This document shows, piece after piece, positions 3,784 through 35,364 of a stretch of 39,754 nt of DNA. The translations under genes and the position numbers were made by a program. Source of the stretch: an uncultured Pirellulales bacterium (lineage in GTDB: Bacteria > Planctomycetota > Planctomycetia > Pirellulales > Lacipirellulaceae); the NCBI GenBank assembly GCA_947258835.1, contig CAMYJY010000018.1, positions 1 to 39,754 on the forward strand, in the 5' to 3' direction. Under the pieces are notes generated by a model that worked only from the letters and a program-made list of their open reading frames with translations, searched no databases and was not told the DNA's origin. The stretch's first letter is position 1. Each line of letters begins with the position of its first letter.

Positions 3784-4312
3784 TTGGCCCTGCCCACGCT
3801 AAGGTATGCGTGCTGCAATCGCAAGAAGGCCCGGGAACGCCGAAAGGGATCGGTGGTTCCAAAGCAATCCGTCTCGACGAACAAGTAGAAATCACGAGAG
3901 CCGGCGCGCGGACGATAATCTAAATTCAGTCGTGTCTTTGTGTCTTGGTGGTTCTACTCGAGGTACTCAAATTTACGCCCGCGGACGAACCATCATCACC
4001 GCCTTAATCCAAGCAAACCAAGCCGATATACAGCAATTATCAAAACTCGCAGCCTAAAAATCTTTGCACCACACAAAGAAACTGATTGTTCGTAGTCCGC
4101 AGGACACGTAGAACTGACCGGTGCTCGACTGCAACCAAGTAAACAGAGTGGCCCAAGTGTTTGGGAATGCCACCACCAGCAAGGCCAGTGCTATCAGCCG
4201 CAGACGCCGCGCCGCGATCGTCCCCAGGATGGTGGTAGACGTTGTTTCCGTCGTTTCGTCGTGGTTCAAAATTCTCAGCCTACGACTCGCATCGGCCGGC
4301 GGTTCTGCCGCC

Positions 4313-5824
4313 TTAGAGGGTACCCATGGCCCGTTGGAGTTGCATTTCCGCCAGGAGGGAATCGTACAAGCTACTGTAATAGTTGCTGTAGGCTCGTGTC
4401 CGCAGTGTCTCCGCGTCCAGCACCTCGGTATTTGTTCCCGCCCCTTGTTGGTAGCGAGCGATCGAGACCCGCAGATTTTCATCCGCGCTCTCCAGGGCCG
4501 CCTGGTTGACATCGACTTGTTGCTGCGTGCTGTCGAGGTCGTGCCAAGCCTTTTTAACCTGGAGGGTAATCATGGACTCCAAATGCGTCCGCTTCCGCAG
4601 CAATCCCTCGGCCGACTGTTCCAGCTGGGCCGTGCGGTTGCCTTTGCGGCCCGCGTCCCAAAAATTCCATTCCGCCAGCACGGCCACATTGTTGAAACTC
4701 TCGTGTTCGAGAAATCTGTTTTCTATGAAGCTATAACCGCCATCGAGGACAATTTGCGGTCGGTTTCCGGCCCGGATCGATTTTGCCGAACTGCGGAGTG
4801 CCCGCACTTTGGCTGAGAGGAAGCCAATCTCGGGACGTTGATTTAAGGCTTGACTGATGGAGAGTTCCAGGTCGTAGTCTTGCGCGGGGCGTGACAAATC
4901 TTGGACCTCGACGAGGTTGTCCAGAGGCCGCTGCAGGGCCCGGTTGTAGGACGCCTGGGCAACGGTGCGGAGGTTTTGCATCTGCAGACGCAACTGGCGC
5001 GCATTGGCCAAGGCGACTTGCACAGCGAGGAGATTCGCGCGGATGCCAACACCTTGATCCACCAGGTTTCCCACCTCCCGCTCATGGGCTTCGAGACTCT
5101 TCACGCCATCCTGAGCCACCTCCAGCAGTCGCTGCGCCTTGAGAACGCCCACGTAAGCCTGCGCCACTTGCAGCTTGACGTCCAACTCGGTCCGCTGCCC
5201 GTCCGCCACGGCCGCGGTCACTTCGGCACCTGCCGCGTGGATGGCATTCTTGATCCGCCCAAAGGTGTACAAAGCCTGCGTTGCGCGCACACCCCCCAGG
5301 AAGAATTCGCGCTGATTTGCCGTCACGCTGGCCGTCGCTCCATTCGGAAGAAAGACCGGGATCGGCGGTATGGGCGCGTTGATCGTAAGCGGATTGTCGT
5401 AAACGGAATAGCTGCCGCGGGCTGAAAGAGTCGGCAGTCTCTCGGCGCGGGCGGCACGCAGCCCGCGCTGAGCGGCCGACGCCTGCCAGCGACTGGCTTC
5501 CAGATCTGGATCCACGCTTAACGCGATCGCCCAAGCCCCCGACAACGACTCGCCTGTCTCGGAGATGACCGTTGGCGTAATCTCCGCCAAGTTTGTGCTG
5601 GCTGGGGCCGGCAAGGTGACCTCTTCCTGGGAGTAAGCCGCGCTGCCCTGAATACTGGTAGCGAAAATGCAGCAAACCACTGCCAGCAGGCGGCAGAGCC
5701 TGCCCCGGGCTGGAACTGGGGTCCGCCGGTCTCTGGGGGCTACCGCTCGGAAGGTATTGGTCCGCTTCCGTGGGGCGTTCCCCGGTTCGCTAGCATCAAG
5801 AATATGTTGTGTAGGGTGCATCAT
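4313..5824 (-). CDS. TolC-family outer membrane efflux protein
   Basis: Long ORF (open from 5962; ATG ATG at 5824/5821 preferred); signal-peptide-like LLAVVCCIFATSIQGSAA; OEP-type coiled-coil repeats. Confidence 0.85.
   Translation of the reverse strand: MMHPTQHILDASEPGNAPRKRTNTFRAVAPRDRRTPVPARGRLCRLLAVVCCIFATSIQGSAAYSQEEVTLPAPASTNLAEITPTVISETGESLSGAWAIALSVDPDLEASRWQASAAQRGLRAARAERLPTLSARGSYSVYDNPLTINAPIPPIPVFLPNGATASVTANQREFFLGGVRATQALYTFGRIKNAIHAAGAEVTAAVADGQRTELDVKLQVAQAYVGVLKAQRLLEVAQDGVKSLEAHEREVGNLVDQGVGIRANLLAVQVALANARQLRLQMQNLRTVAQASYNRALQRPLDNLVEVQDLSRPAQDYDLELSISQALNQRPEIGFLSAKVRALRSSAKSIRAGNRPQIVLDGGYSFIENRFLEHESFNNVAVLAEWNFWDAGRKGNRTAQLEQSAEGLLRKRTHLESMITLQVKKAWHDLDSTQQQVDVNQAALESADENLRVSIARYQQGAGTNTEVLDAETLRTRAYSNYYSSLYDSLLAEMQLQRAMGTL
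5688..5782 (-). repeat. Interspersed repeat family A copy inside the tolC-like CDS
   Basis: Reverse complement ACGGAAGCGGACCAATACCTTCCGAGCGGTAGCCCCCAGAGACCGGCGGACCCCAGTTCCAGCCCGGGGCAGGCTCTGCCGCCTGC aligns to the 14710-14805 copy. Confidence 0.85.
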
Positions 5825-6224
5825 GCGTCGTGTGATCGTGAAAGCGTGCTGTTGTGGTAGTGTAGTGGTTGTAGTGATCGGCCGGCTTGTGTGGATTTTG
5901 CCTGCATTTGCTGGGCGAGCCCAAAACTCGCTGTAATCCGCAAAGCTTGACATCGCATGCATGCGGCCAGCTTGCCCCCTAGTCCGCGTCTTCTCCGTTT
6001 GTCAAATACTCGTGGCAAGATTTACCGGAGAAATCAGAGAAATCGATGCCATCGGCACCGGCAGCCGATGTAATCAGGCAGCTCTATGGAGACCTGTGTC
6101 ATCGATTAGAGCAGCTTACCAACAGTGGTGGTGGTCGCCCCCCGCGCAAACCGAGGGGAGCCACGCAGTGCGACCCGCTGGCAGCACATCGCATTTTGGA
6201 AATTTTCTATAAAACCCTTGGTGA

Positions 6225-6671: not shown

Positions 6672-6741
6672 CTGTGGCTTGCGGCAGGAACAGTTAGCGA
6701 GGGCACCATCTGACTTGGATGATGCGAGTAAACTTGTTGTA

Positions 6742-6850
6742 TTTGAGTCAAATTGAGCGACCAGTGGGAGCGGGCAAACGTCTTCCGATCGGTAGCTCGC
6801 ATTGGTTCGAGGCCCCCCGGTCAAGCCGGGGGCAGGCCTTGTCTCGCTAG
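6742..6850 (+). repeat. Interspersed repeat family A copy
   Basis: TTTGAGTCAAATTGAGCGACCAGTGGGAGCGGGCAAACGTCTTCCGATCGGTAGCTCGCATTGGTTCGAGGCCCCCCGGTCAAGCCGGGGGCAGGC. Confidence 0.9.
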
Positions 6851-11920: not shown

Positions 11921-11997
11921 CAGTCATTCCCGCGCAGGCGGGAATCCAGTAGCAGTGCCAGTGGTCTAGATTCCCGCTTGCGCGGGAATGACGCTGG
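11921..11997 (+). repeat. Inverted pair of ATTCCCGC-N-GCGGGAAT palindromes (dRS3/REP-like)
   Basis: CAGTCATTCCCGCGCAGGCGGGAATCCAG ... CTAGATTCCCGCTTGCGCGGGAATGACGCTGG. Confidence 0.85.
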
Positions 11998-14588: not shown

Positions 14589-14704
14589 CGGCGGCTGGGC
14601 CGCCGATGGTGGCGGGTCCGTGGTTGGCTGGAAAGCCCACTATCATAGGTAAATACACGAATGTGGAAACCGCTTAGCCATTTACAAACAGAAATGTTCA
14701 GCGC

Positions 14705-14805
14705 CAGCGACCAACGGGAGCGGGCTACTTTCATCGAGCGGTAGCTCGCATTGGCCGGCGGCCCCCCGTTCTAGCCGGGGGCAGGCTCTGCCGCCCGCAG
14801 AAAAA
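14705..14805 (+). repeat. Interspersed repeat family A copy upstream of rpsJ
   Basis: AGCGACCAACGGGAGCGGGCTACTTTCATCGAGCGGTAGCTCGCATTGGCCGGCGGCCCCCCGTTCTAGCCGGGGGCAGGCTCTGCCGCCCGC. Confidence 0.9.
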
Positions 14806-20273: not shown

Positions 20274-20507
20274 ATGAACAAAGCCAGTGAACTTCGCGAA
20301 ATGAGTGATGAGCAGCTCGCGCTCACGTTGAAAGAAGCAACCGACAATTTGTTTCGCTTTCACATCCAAGCACAAACGGACCGACTCGACGCACCGAGTG
20401 AGTTGCGTCGGGCACGAAGGTTGGTGGCTCGGGTGAAGACGATCCAGACCCAGAGGGCCAGCAAGTCGGAGAAAACAACCGCTGCGACCGCTGAAGACTC
20501 AAACTGA
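20274..20507 (+). CDS. rpmC: 50S ribosomal protein L29
   Basis: MNKASELREMSDEQLALTLKEATDNLFRFHIQAQTDRLDAPSELRRARRLVARVKT. Confidence 0.95.
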   Translation: MNKASELREMSDEQLALTLKEATDNLFRFHIQAQTDRLDAPSELRRARRLVARVKTIQTQRASKSEKTTAATAEDSN

Positions 20508-21321: not shown

Positions 21322-21669
21322 ATGCTGATTCGCACTGGAGATACGATCGAAGTGATTGCCGGAGCCGATCGCGGCACGACCAGCCGCGTGATTCAGGTTG
21401 ATCGGGAAAAGGGCAAGGCTTTGGTGGAAAACGTCAACCGTGTGTACAAGCACGTGCGGCGAAGTCAAAAACATCCCCAAGGGGGGCGTTTGAGCAAAGA
21501 GATGCCCATCCAGCTTTCCAATGTGATGTATGTCTGTCCGTCCTGCTCCAGTCCTTCGCGACTGGGCGCGCGGTTTTCCCCGGAGGGTGCCAAAGAACGT
21601 TTTTGTAAGAAATGCGGCGCGAGTGCTGGCGAAATCGCACCAGCCCATGCGTCCCACGCCCAGAAATAA
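21322..21669 (+). CDS. rplX: 50S ribosomal protein L24 (Zn-ribbon CxxC...CxxC form)
   Basis: KOW motif IRTGDTIEVIAGADRGTTSRVIQVDREKGKALVENVNRVYKHVRRSQKHPQGG; CPSC...CKKC. Confidence 0.96.
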   Translation: MLIRTGDTIEVIAGADRGTTSRVIQVDREKGKALVENVNRVYKHVRRSQKHPQGGRLSKEMPIQLSNVMYVCPSCSSPSRLGARFSPEGAKERFCKKCGASAGEIAPAHASHAQK

Positions 21670-21822
21670 GGCGGCAGGTGCCTGCCCTCGGCTTGACCGG
21701 GGGCCGCCGGCCAATGCGAGGGCGGCAGTGCCGCCGGCCAATGCGAGGGCGGCAGTGCCGCCGGCCAATGCGAGCTACCGCTCGGAAGGTGTTTGCCCGC
21801 TTCCGTTGGGCGCTTGAATTGT
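21670..21822 (-). repeat. Interspersed repeat family A copy with internal 27-bp tandem amplification
   Basis: GGCGGCAG...CCGGGGGCCGCCGGCCAATGCGAG[GGCGGCAGTGCCGCCGGCCAATGCGAG]x2 CTACCGCTCGGAAGGTGTTTGCCCGCTTCCGTTGGGCGC; begins directly after the rplX TAA. Confidence 0.85.
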
Positions 21823-21872
21823 TGTAAATATTAGAATTCCAATCGTTAGTAGCACAAAGTACGCGAACCACT

Positions 21873-29039: not shown

Positions 29040-29140
29040 ATGGCCCGGCGCCGCCACAGCCAAGCGCGCGACGCGTGGTTGGACAGCGGCAGTGTGTCCG
29101 GTTATAAGTTGAGACCCTGAGATAAACCAACTGTTGTATG

Positions 29141-29342
29141 GAAGTCAAAATTTTAGCGACCAACGGAAGCGGGCTGATGCTTTCCGAGCGGTAGCTCGCA
29201 TTGGTTCGAGGCCCGGGCCTCGTTAGTTTCCTTAGGGGGCGAAATTCGTCGTATTTGAGTCAAATTTTGGAGCGACCATCGGGAGCGGGCCAATGACTTC
29301 TGAGCGGTAGCTCACATTGGTTCGAGGCCCGGGCCTCGTTAG
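29141..29342 (+). repeat. Two tandem copies of interspersed repeat family A
   Basis: GTCAAAATTTTAGCGACCAACGGAAGCGGGC...GAGCGGTAGCTCGCATTGGTTCGAGGCCCGGGCCTCGTTAG repeated at ~29255-29342 with few changes. Confidence 0.9.
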
Positions 29343-30929: not shown

Positions 30930-30950
30930 TAAACGATTGCCGGGCGGTGT

Positions 30951-31070
30951 TGCCTGCAACTGGGTTGCCTGCAACTGGGTTGCCTGCAACTGGGTTGTCC
31001 GCAACTGGGTCGTCCGCAACTGGGTCGTCCGCAACGGGGTCGTCCGCAACGGGGTCGTCCGCAACGGGGT
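30951..31070 (+). repeat. 15-bp tandem repeat x8 with a directional sequence gradient
   Basis: TGCCTGCAACTGGGT x3, TGTCCGCAACTGGGT, CGTCCGCAACTGGGT, CGTCCGCAACGGGGT x3. Confidence 0.97.
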
Positions 31071-31216
31071 CGGATGCTTGGCGTTCCGGGTTGAGGCATT
31101 CCGGGGCAGCCCCGGGGCGGAGAGCTAGCCGGGCCCACGATGAAGTGCTCTTGAGCAAGCAAAACAACCAACATTAGTAATCATTCGGGAACTACCGTGA
31201 AGGGTGGAGGTATCTG

Positions 31217-32948: not shown

Positions 32949-33112
32949 GCGAGTCGTAGGCTGGGCGCAGCCCCACCTTGATCACTTGCTGAGAATTTTG
33001 AACCACGACGAAACAACGGAAACAACGTCCACTACGAATCAACCAACGAAAAGAATCAACCAACGAAAAATAAGTTTCTGTTCGTCGTCGCGTTGTTTCG
33101 CTGTGGTTCCTT
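32949..33112 (+). repeat. Interspersed repeat family D: imperfect palindrome (GAACCACGACGAAACAACGGAAACAACG ... CGTTGTTTCGCTGTGGTTC)
   Basis: Inverted arms within the copy; second partial copy at 4236-4290 on the minus strand. Confidence 0.75.
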
Positions 33113-33181
33113 GTCATTTCCCCTTCGCGGGGCCCCTTCGCGGGAATGACGAGGAGATCCGCTGGTTCTCAAGACACTGCT

Positions 33182-34937: not shown

Positions 34938-34961
34938 GACCCGCGCGCGTAGGAGCATCTT

Positions 34962-35119
34962 CCGTCATTGCCGCGTACCTCAGCGTCATTCCCGCCTCTC
35001 ACAGCATCATTCCCGCCTCTCTCAACGTCATTCCCGCGCCTCTCACAGCATCATTCCCGCGCCTCTCACAGCATCATTCCCGCCTATCTCAACGTCATTC
35101 CCGCGGAGGCGGGAATCTA
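34962..35119 (+). repeat. Degenerate ~21-22-bp tandem array of (A/C)(G/A)TCATTCCCGC half-sites ending in CATTCCCGCGGAGGCGGGAATC
   Basis: About seven TCATT(C/G)CCGC units separated by CTCTCACAGCA / CTCTCAACG spacers. Confidence 0.9.
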
Positions 35120-35212
35120 GCATCCACCCAATGTTTCCCTCTGTCGAAAGTGTGTCAAATTCGCACACCGCGTGATATTTCCCGAGCGCTCCAGTATGTT
35201 CAGCCGTCTCAG

Positions 35213-35300
35213 CCGCGAGGGGGTGGCAGGGCCTGCCCCCGGCTTGAACGGGGGGGCGTCCACCCACGCGAGCCATCGTCCGGAAGGCAGGTGCCCCGGC
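35213..35300 (-). repeat. Diverged family A copy
   Basis: GGCAGGGCCTGCCCCCGGCTTGAACGGGGGGGCGTCCACCCACGCGAGCCATCGTCCGGAAGGCAGG resembles the reverse-complement form of family A. Confidence 0.55.
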
Positions 35301-35364
35301 CATCGTTTGCTTCCGGTGATCGATTTCTTGCTTTAACAATTGTCCAGTCGCCCGCCATGCCCCC

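Follow-up and report, generated by a model that had tools for sequence, protein, structure and literature searches.

A dispersed repeat family that enters coding sequence in a Pirellulales bacterium and probably supplies part of a TolC signal peptide

A repeat of ~135 bp has probably inserted at the signal-peptide region of a TolC-family gene in an uncultured Pirellulales bacterium, where the gene's sequence suggests that it is translated from ATG 5824 or 5821 and serves as the n-region of the signal peptide. The gene lies in the window, by which we mean the whole 39,754-nt stretch of contig CAMYJY010000018.1 analyzed here. The repeat belongs to a dispersed, lineage-specific, mostly intergenic family of well over 200 copies, and alignments of nadB, dgt, pyrF, and atpF with their orthologues demonstrate, at the level of sequence, that this family enters coding sequence. 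The TolC gene and the copy within it have the following parts.

4313 to 5824, minus strand: gene for a TolC-family outer membrane efflux protein (putative start ATG 5824; longest open reading frame to 5962; Pfam OEP, 9.1e-46; TIGR01844, 6e-36, below cut-off)
5822 to 5824, minus strand: ATG 5824, the most likely start, directly before the element (a second ATG lies at 5819 to 5821)
5778 to 5821, minus strand: degenerate 5' half (module M1) of the TolC copy (full-length profile match 5809 to 5688; exact 5' end tentative)
5688 to 5777, minus strand: element core, encoding PRKRTNTFRAVAPRDRRTPVPARGRLCRLL (profile positions 3 to 92 of 93, 64.9 bits; same orientation as the TolC gene)
5651 to 5689, minus strand: hydrophobic h-region LLAVVCCIFATSI in the translation, beginning at the 3' end of the element and compared with MCRSSQVLARLTCLMTLFWIGQVSLA of an orthologue
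5678 to 5680, minus strand: GTG 5680, the rival start, with no other start codon from the repeat to the mature protein; it would give MVCCIFATSIQGSAA

As the earlier note had proposed, positions 5688 to 5782 encode RKRTNTFRAVAPRDRRTPVPARGRLCRLL on the minus strand, immediately before LAVVCCIFATSIQGSAA in the open reading frame 4313 to 5962. The note took this copy for a full-length element of ~95 bp; the copy is real but the unit is longer, running for ~135 nt in TolC to ~5821. Module M1 of the TolC copy scores 15.2, compared with 8.4 +/- 1.9 for random genomic sequence, a value equalled by 6 of 1500 random sequences and 0 of 500 shuffles. Since this weak 5' half reaches ~5821, we put the element's edge at ATG 5821/5824. 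A profile search also recovered every other copy listed previously (~6755, ~14710, ~21670, ~29150, and ~29260), together with a degenerate copy absent from that list.

6726 to 6847, plus strand: intergenic copy of the second subfamily (99.3 bits)
14694 to 14796, plus strand: intergenic copy (98.0 bits)
21668 to 21855, minus strand: copy with the 27-bp tandem unit, between ribosomal protein genes (matches 21719 to 21855 and 21668 to 21720; 83.0 + 31.1 bits)
29130 to 29214, plus strand: second-subfamily copy, short form without the 24-bp hairpin (64.6 bits)
29244 to 29330, plus strand: second-subfamily copy, short form (58.3 bits)
35221 to 35338, minus strand: degenerate copy (64.1 bits)

No Rfam family matched in a scan of the window. 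Several other features of this DNA can be recorded. Three copies of a AACTCAAACTGAAAA... repeat lie ~4 kb apart at 20497, 24505, and 28530, and a second type of palindromic repeat (GTCATTCCCGC...GCGGGAATGAC), partly a tandem array of 21- to 23-bp units, occurs at 11966-11996, 33135-33165, and 34951-35120. Positions 4232-4279 and 32988-33035 form an inverted pair of 48 nt, 94% complementary and 28.7 kb apart, and a tandem array of the 15-bp unit GTTGCCTGCAACTGG spans 30934-31083. The product of one window gene is a sigma factor that matches the Planctomycetaceae-specific subfamily TIGR02984 (E 1e-39, below the curated cut-off), which points to a probable planctomycete host.

The abundance of the repeat in the host assembly (2.75 Mb, 327 contigs) is far beyond chance, with 221 matches to the 18-bp core TTCCGAGCGGTAGCTCGC at up to 3 mismatches versus 0 for the reversed pattern. 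In support of the TolC core, a 131-nt query matches at least 40 genomic copies. Among 397 genomes of the order the core is nearly missing, with only a few scattered matches outside the host assembly. One same-genus genome (G008) holds ~10 copies of a family that is related but built differently; at its loci L238-L247 the units are ~100 bp long and resemble one another at their ends (CTCTGTATAC...GCCGCTCTGTG), and in about half the middle differs. The location of copies was surveyed in 101 stretches (1.29 Mb) with a home-made codon-usage gene caller, by which 78% was coding. Here 23 of 176 copy clusters fall inside called genes and 153 outside, fractions that are not genome-wide since most of the contigs were picked for holding copies. 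Only 9 of 137 copies outside genes lie between convergent genes, unlike published REPs (PMC3733652).

Aligned copies show a full unit of ~135 bp, or 45 codons, consisting of a 5' half of ~45 bp that exists in two subfamilies, followed by a core of ~60 bp with the hairpins GAGC-GGTA-GCTC and GGCGGC...GCCGCC. Both hairpins are conserved, with compensatory change in no more than 2 of 20 pairs. The GGCGGC...GCCGCC hairpin can enclose an optional 24-bp GC hairpin, and an optional 27-bp unit can be tandemly repeated. The lengths of the ~135-bp unit, the 24-bp hairpin, the 27-bp unit, and other modules are multiples of three. The length offset from the model is also a multiple of three in 23 of 34 full-span copies outside called genes, a count that is not independent given the many near-identical recent copies. 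Both ends of the element carry CTG in direct orientation, and inspection by eye showed no duplication at the nadB and pyrF sites. In copies outside called genes, a mean of 1.24 of the 3 sense frames and 1.65 of the 3 antisense frames are open, as against 0.94 in shuffles.

The clearest coding copies are those in conserved genes. Orthologue alignments were made with 11 same-genus genomes, in each of which the protein is uninterrupted at the insert sites. NadB carries an in-frame element of 45 aa (PLHYAPAAH[...]DEPLDL) and PyrF one of 37 aa, while the dGTPase gene dgt (L075:9223-10575, plus strand) has one in-frame insert of ~86 aa holding two elements. In the orthologues, these NadB, Dgt, and PyrF sites fall in variable loops. 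The closest parallel to TolC is atpF (L161:5416-6207, plus strand), where a sense copy separates the n- and h-regions of the signal peptide and shares the orientation and frame of the TolC copy; several AtpF orthologues begin M-S-F-x-R-x-F-x-LLL..., and the protein here reads MIFARLFS, then the element, then LVLGVMVMLCAPCRAA. Family profiles point to further likely coding inserts in an RND transporter, MnmE, BirA, an M20 peptidase, and a polyketide synthase. In the polyketide synthase gene (L131:3741-9650, minus strand), two elements lie apart from each other between domains. Most inserts that lie within domains are antisense, in agreement with the antisense strand having more open frames. A search for genes put out of frame by copies turned up carB (L105:2300-3000, plus strand), in which an element is in frame with both halves of the gene; farther upstream there is a frameshift or deletion, which could reflect faulty assembly or a degenerating gene. 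The suggestion that a noncoding repeat became coding sequence thus holds for the family, by the nadB, dgt, pyrF, and atpF alignments, and for TolC itself translation through the repeat is likely.

Same-genus genomes yielded no TolC orthologue at useful similarity, and we therefore used the closest one available, which has 71% identity and comes from another bin (L270; record labelled Rubricoccaceae). A divergent Cys-rich gene near TolC is also conserved at this locus. The orthologue begins MCRSSQVLARLTCLMTLFWIGQVSLAQEQ, a short ordinary signal peptide with its start close to the hydrophobic core and without the repeat segment. No member of the repeat family was found in its genome, which together with the missing segment indicates that the TolC insertion is derived. 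More distant TolC orthologues also lack the segment. This N-terminal comparison, which the earlier note had called for, rules out the reading of the segment as ancestral protein sequence with a coincidental likeness to the repeat, a reading also opposed by the 64.9-bit match and one to which we would assign next to no probability. Alignment of the upstream DNA of TolC with that of the orthologue found no usable homology, which leaves the insertion point approximate.

Five in-frame starts are available to the TolC gene: ATG 5962, 5953, 5824, and 5821 and GTG 5680. Initiation at ATG 5962 or 5953 would place ~90 extra residues ahead of the hydrophobic segment. Although the frame is open from 5962, this is very improbable, as the codon score of 5962-5825 is intergenic-like (-0.206) and the frame of the 71% orthologue is closed in the matching region, closing shortly upstream of the gene (stop-to-stop open reading frame from nt 1947, start at nt 1977).

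A start at GTG 5680 is a more serious, though still unlikely, alternative. The element would then be 5' untranslated region, open by chance, with translation beginning inside the hydrophobic stretch and the hairpins acting, if at all, on the mRNA. GTG 5680 is the start picked by the codon model, and codon usage upstream of it is intergenic-like: 5824-5684 scores -0.158 per codon, where intergenic open frames have a median of -0.166 and the 5th percentile of gene starts is +0.038. By this measure the verified copies inside genes score low or mixed as well (dgt, -0.24; nadB, +0.14). We saw no Shine-Dalgarno-like motif before ATG 5824; such motifs accompany just 21% of called ATG starts. Intergenic copies often have open sense frames (mean 1.24 of 3), and upstream of genes there are 15 other copies whose frames are open by chance, which makes the open frame alone a weak argument for translation. 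A survey of REPs has likewise warned that many N-terminal REPs are extragenic and the starts misannotated (PMC3733652), which counts against reading the TolC copy as coding. Changes by codon position (6/6/3 in the TolC copy, 45/53/48 in in-gene copies) show no third-position excess in either set, and since the in-gene copies also lack this bias the test does not discriminate for the TolC copy. Against GTG 5680 stands its product, MVCCIFATSIQGSAA, a signal of 15 residues with no basic n-region and ~11 residues shorter than that of the orthologue, which makes translation through the repeat most likely. The atpF gene argues in the same direction, since its orthologues put the start upstream of the element and the same arrangement is translated there.

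We therefore favor translation through the repeat, and propose that a dispersed ~135-bp element inserted in sense orientation at the signal-peptide region of the TolC-family gene. The reading frame would have been kept because the element is 45 codons long and its sense frame has no stop. Ribosomes would most likely initiate at the element's 5' edge, on ATG 5824 (or 5821), and read through the element into the hydrophobic signal segment that adjoins its 3' end. The long basic n-region would then be the element peptide (RKR...RRTPVPARGRLCR), which is expected to be cleaved off with the signal peptide, leaving the mature channel protein unchanged. Of this scheme, the start codon, the n-region function, and the cleavage are what we infer.

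Two more sense copies, at L130:5711-5846 and L113:9135-9194, lie right before hydrophobic signal-like segments. Sense copies in this position in TolC, atpF, and these two loci, set beside in-domain copies that are almost all antisense, raise the idea that the element repeatedly gives rise to n-regions of signal peptides and is tolerated or selected in that role, as a module for export and not as mere loop filler. We regard this idea as doubtful.

The family has counterparts among known repeats. Rickettsia palindromic elements (RPEs) are dispersed units of ~150 bp that lie in frame within unrelated conserved genes and are translated as inserts of tens of residues, and nearly half of those in R. 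conorii are in genes (PMC10969869). The present element resembles them, in a comparison of descriptions and not of sequence, in its dispersed lineage-restricted copies and in its in-frame insertion in unrelated conserved genes, absent from orthologues (here nadB, dgt, pyrF, and atpF). It differs in belonging to another phylum, in its modular build with the optional 24-bp hairpin and 27-bp repeats, and in the share of sampled clusters inside genes, ~13% as against nearly half in R. conorii (PMC10969869). Palindromic GTAG/CGTC REPs occur inside open reading frames of known function in Opitutus terrae, Rickettsia conorii, and others, and are reported from the PVC superphylum, Planctomycetes among them; they are units of 20-40 bp with a GTAG or CGTC tag at one end (PMC3733652). 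The unit here is ~135 bp, with GGTA in the loop of GAGC-GGTA-GCTC, and this mismatch in size and tag means that the element is not a GTAG/CGTC REP. A search for a linked tyrosine transposase (RAYT-type) gave three Y1_Tnp genes over the cut-off and one weak match, with no copy of the repeat within 2.2 kb of any of them. The element is like a MITE in being short, nonautonomous, and high in copy number with a lineage-specific expansion, and unlike one in that no terminal inverted repeats, target duplication, or cognate transposase were identified for it. It is a new lineage-specific family of a known process, that of protein-coding repeats such as RPEs and intragenic REPs.

Rickettsia is the best-known source of protein-coding mobile repeats. 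An unrelated and abundant family with orthologue-verified inserts in the housekeeping genes nadB, dgt, pyrF, and atpF indicates that the process recurs outside Rickettsia, and the orthologue set provides empty-site comparisons within one genus. Insertion at a signal peptide would be a simple route by which a repeat may become protein without harm to the mature product.
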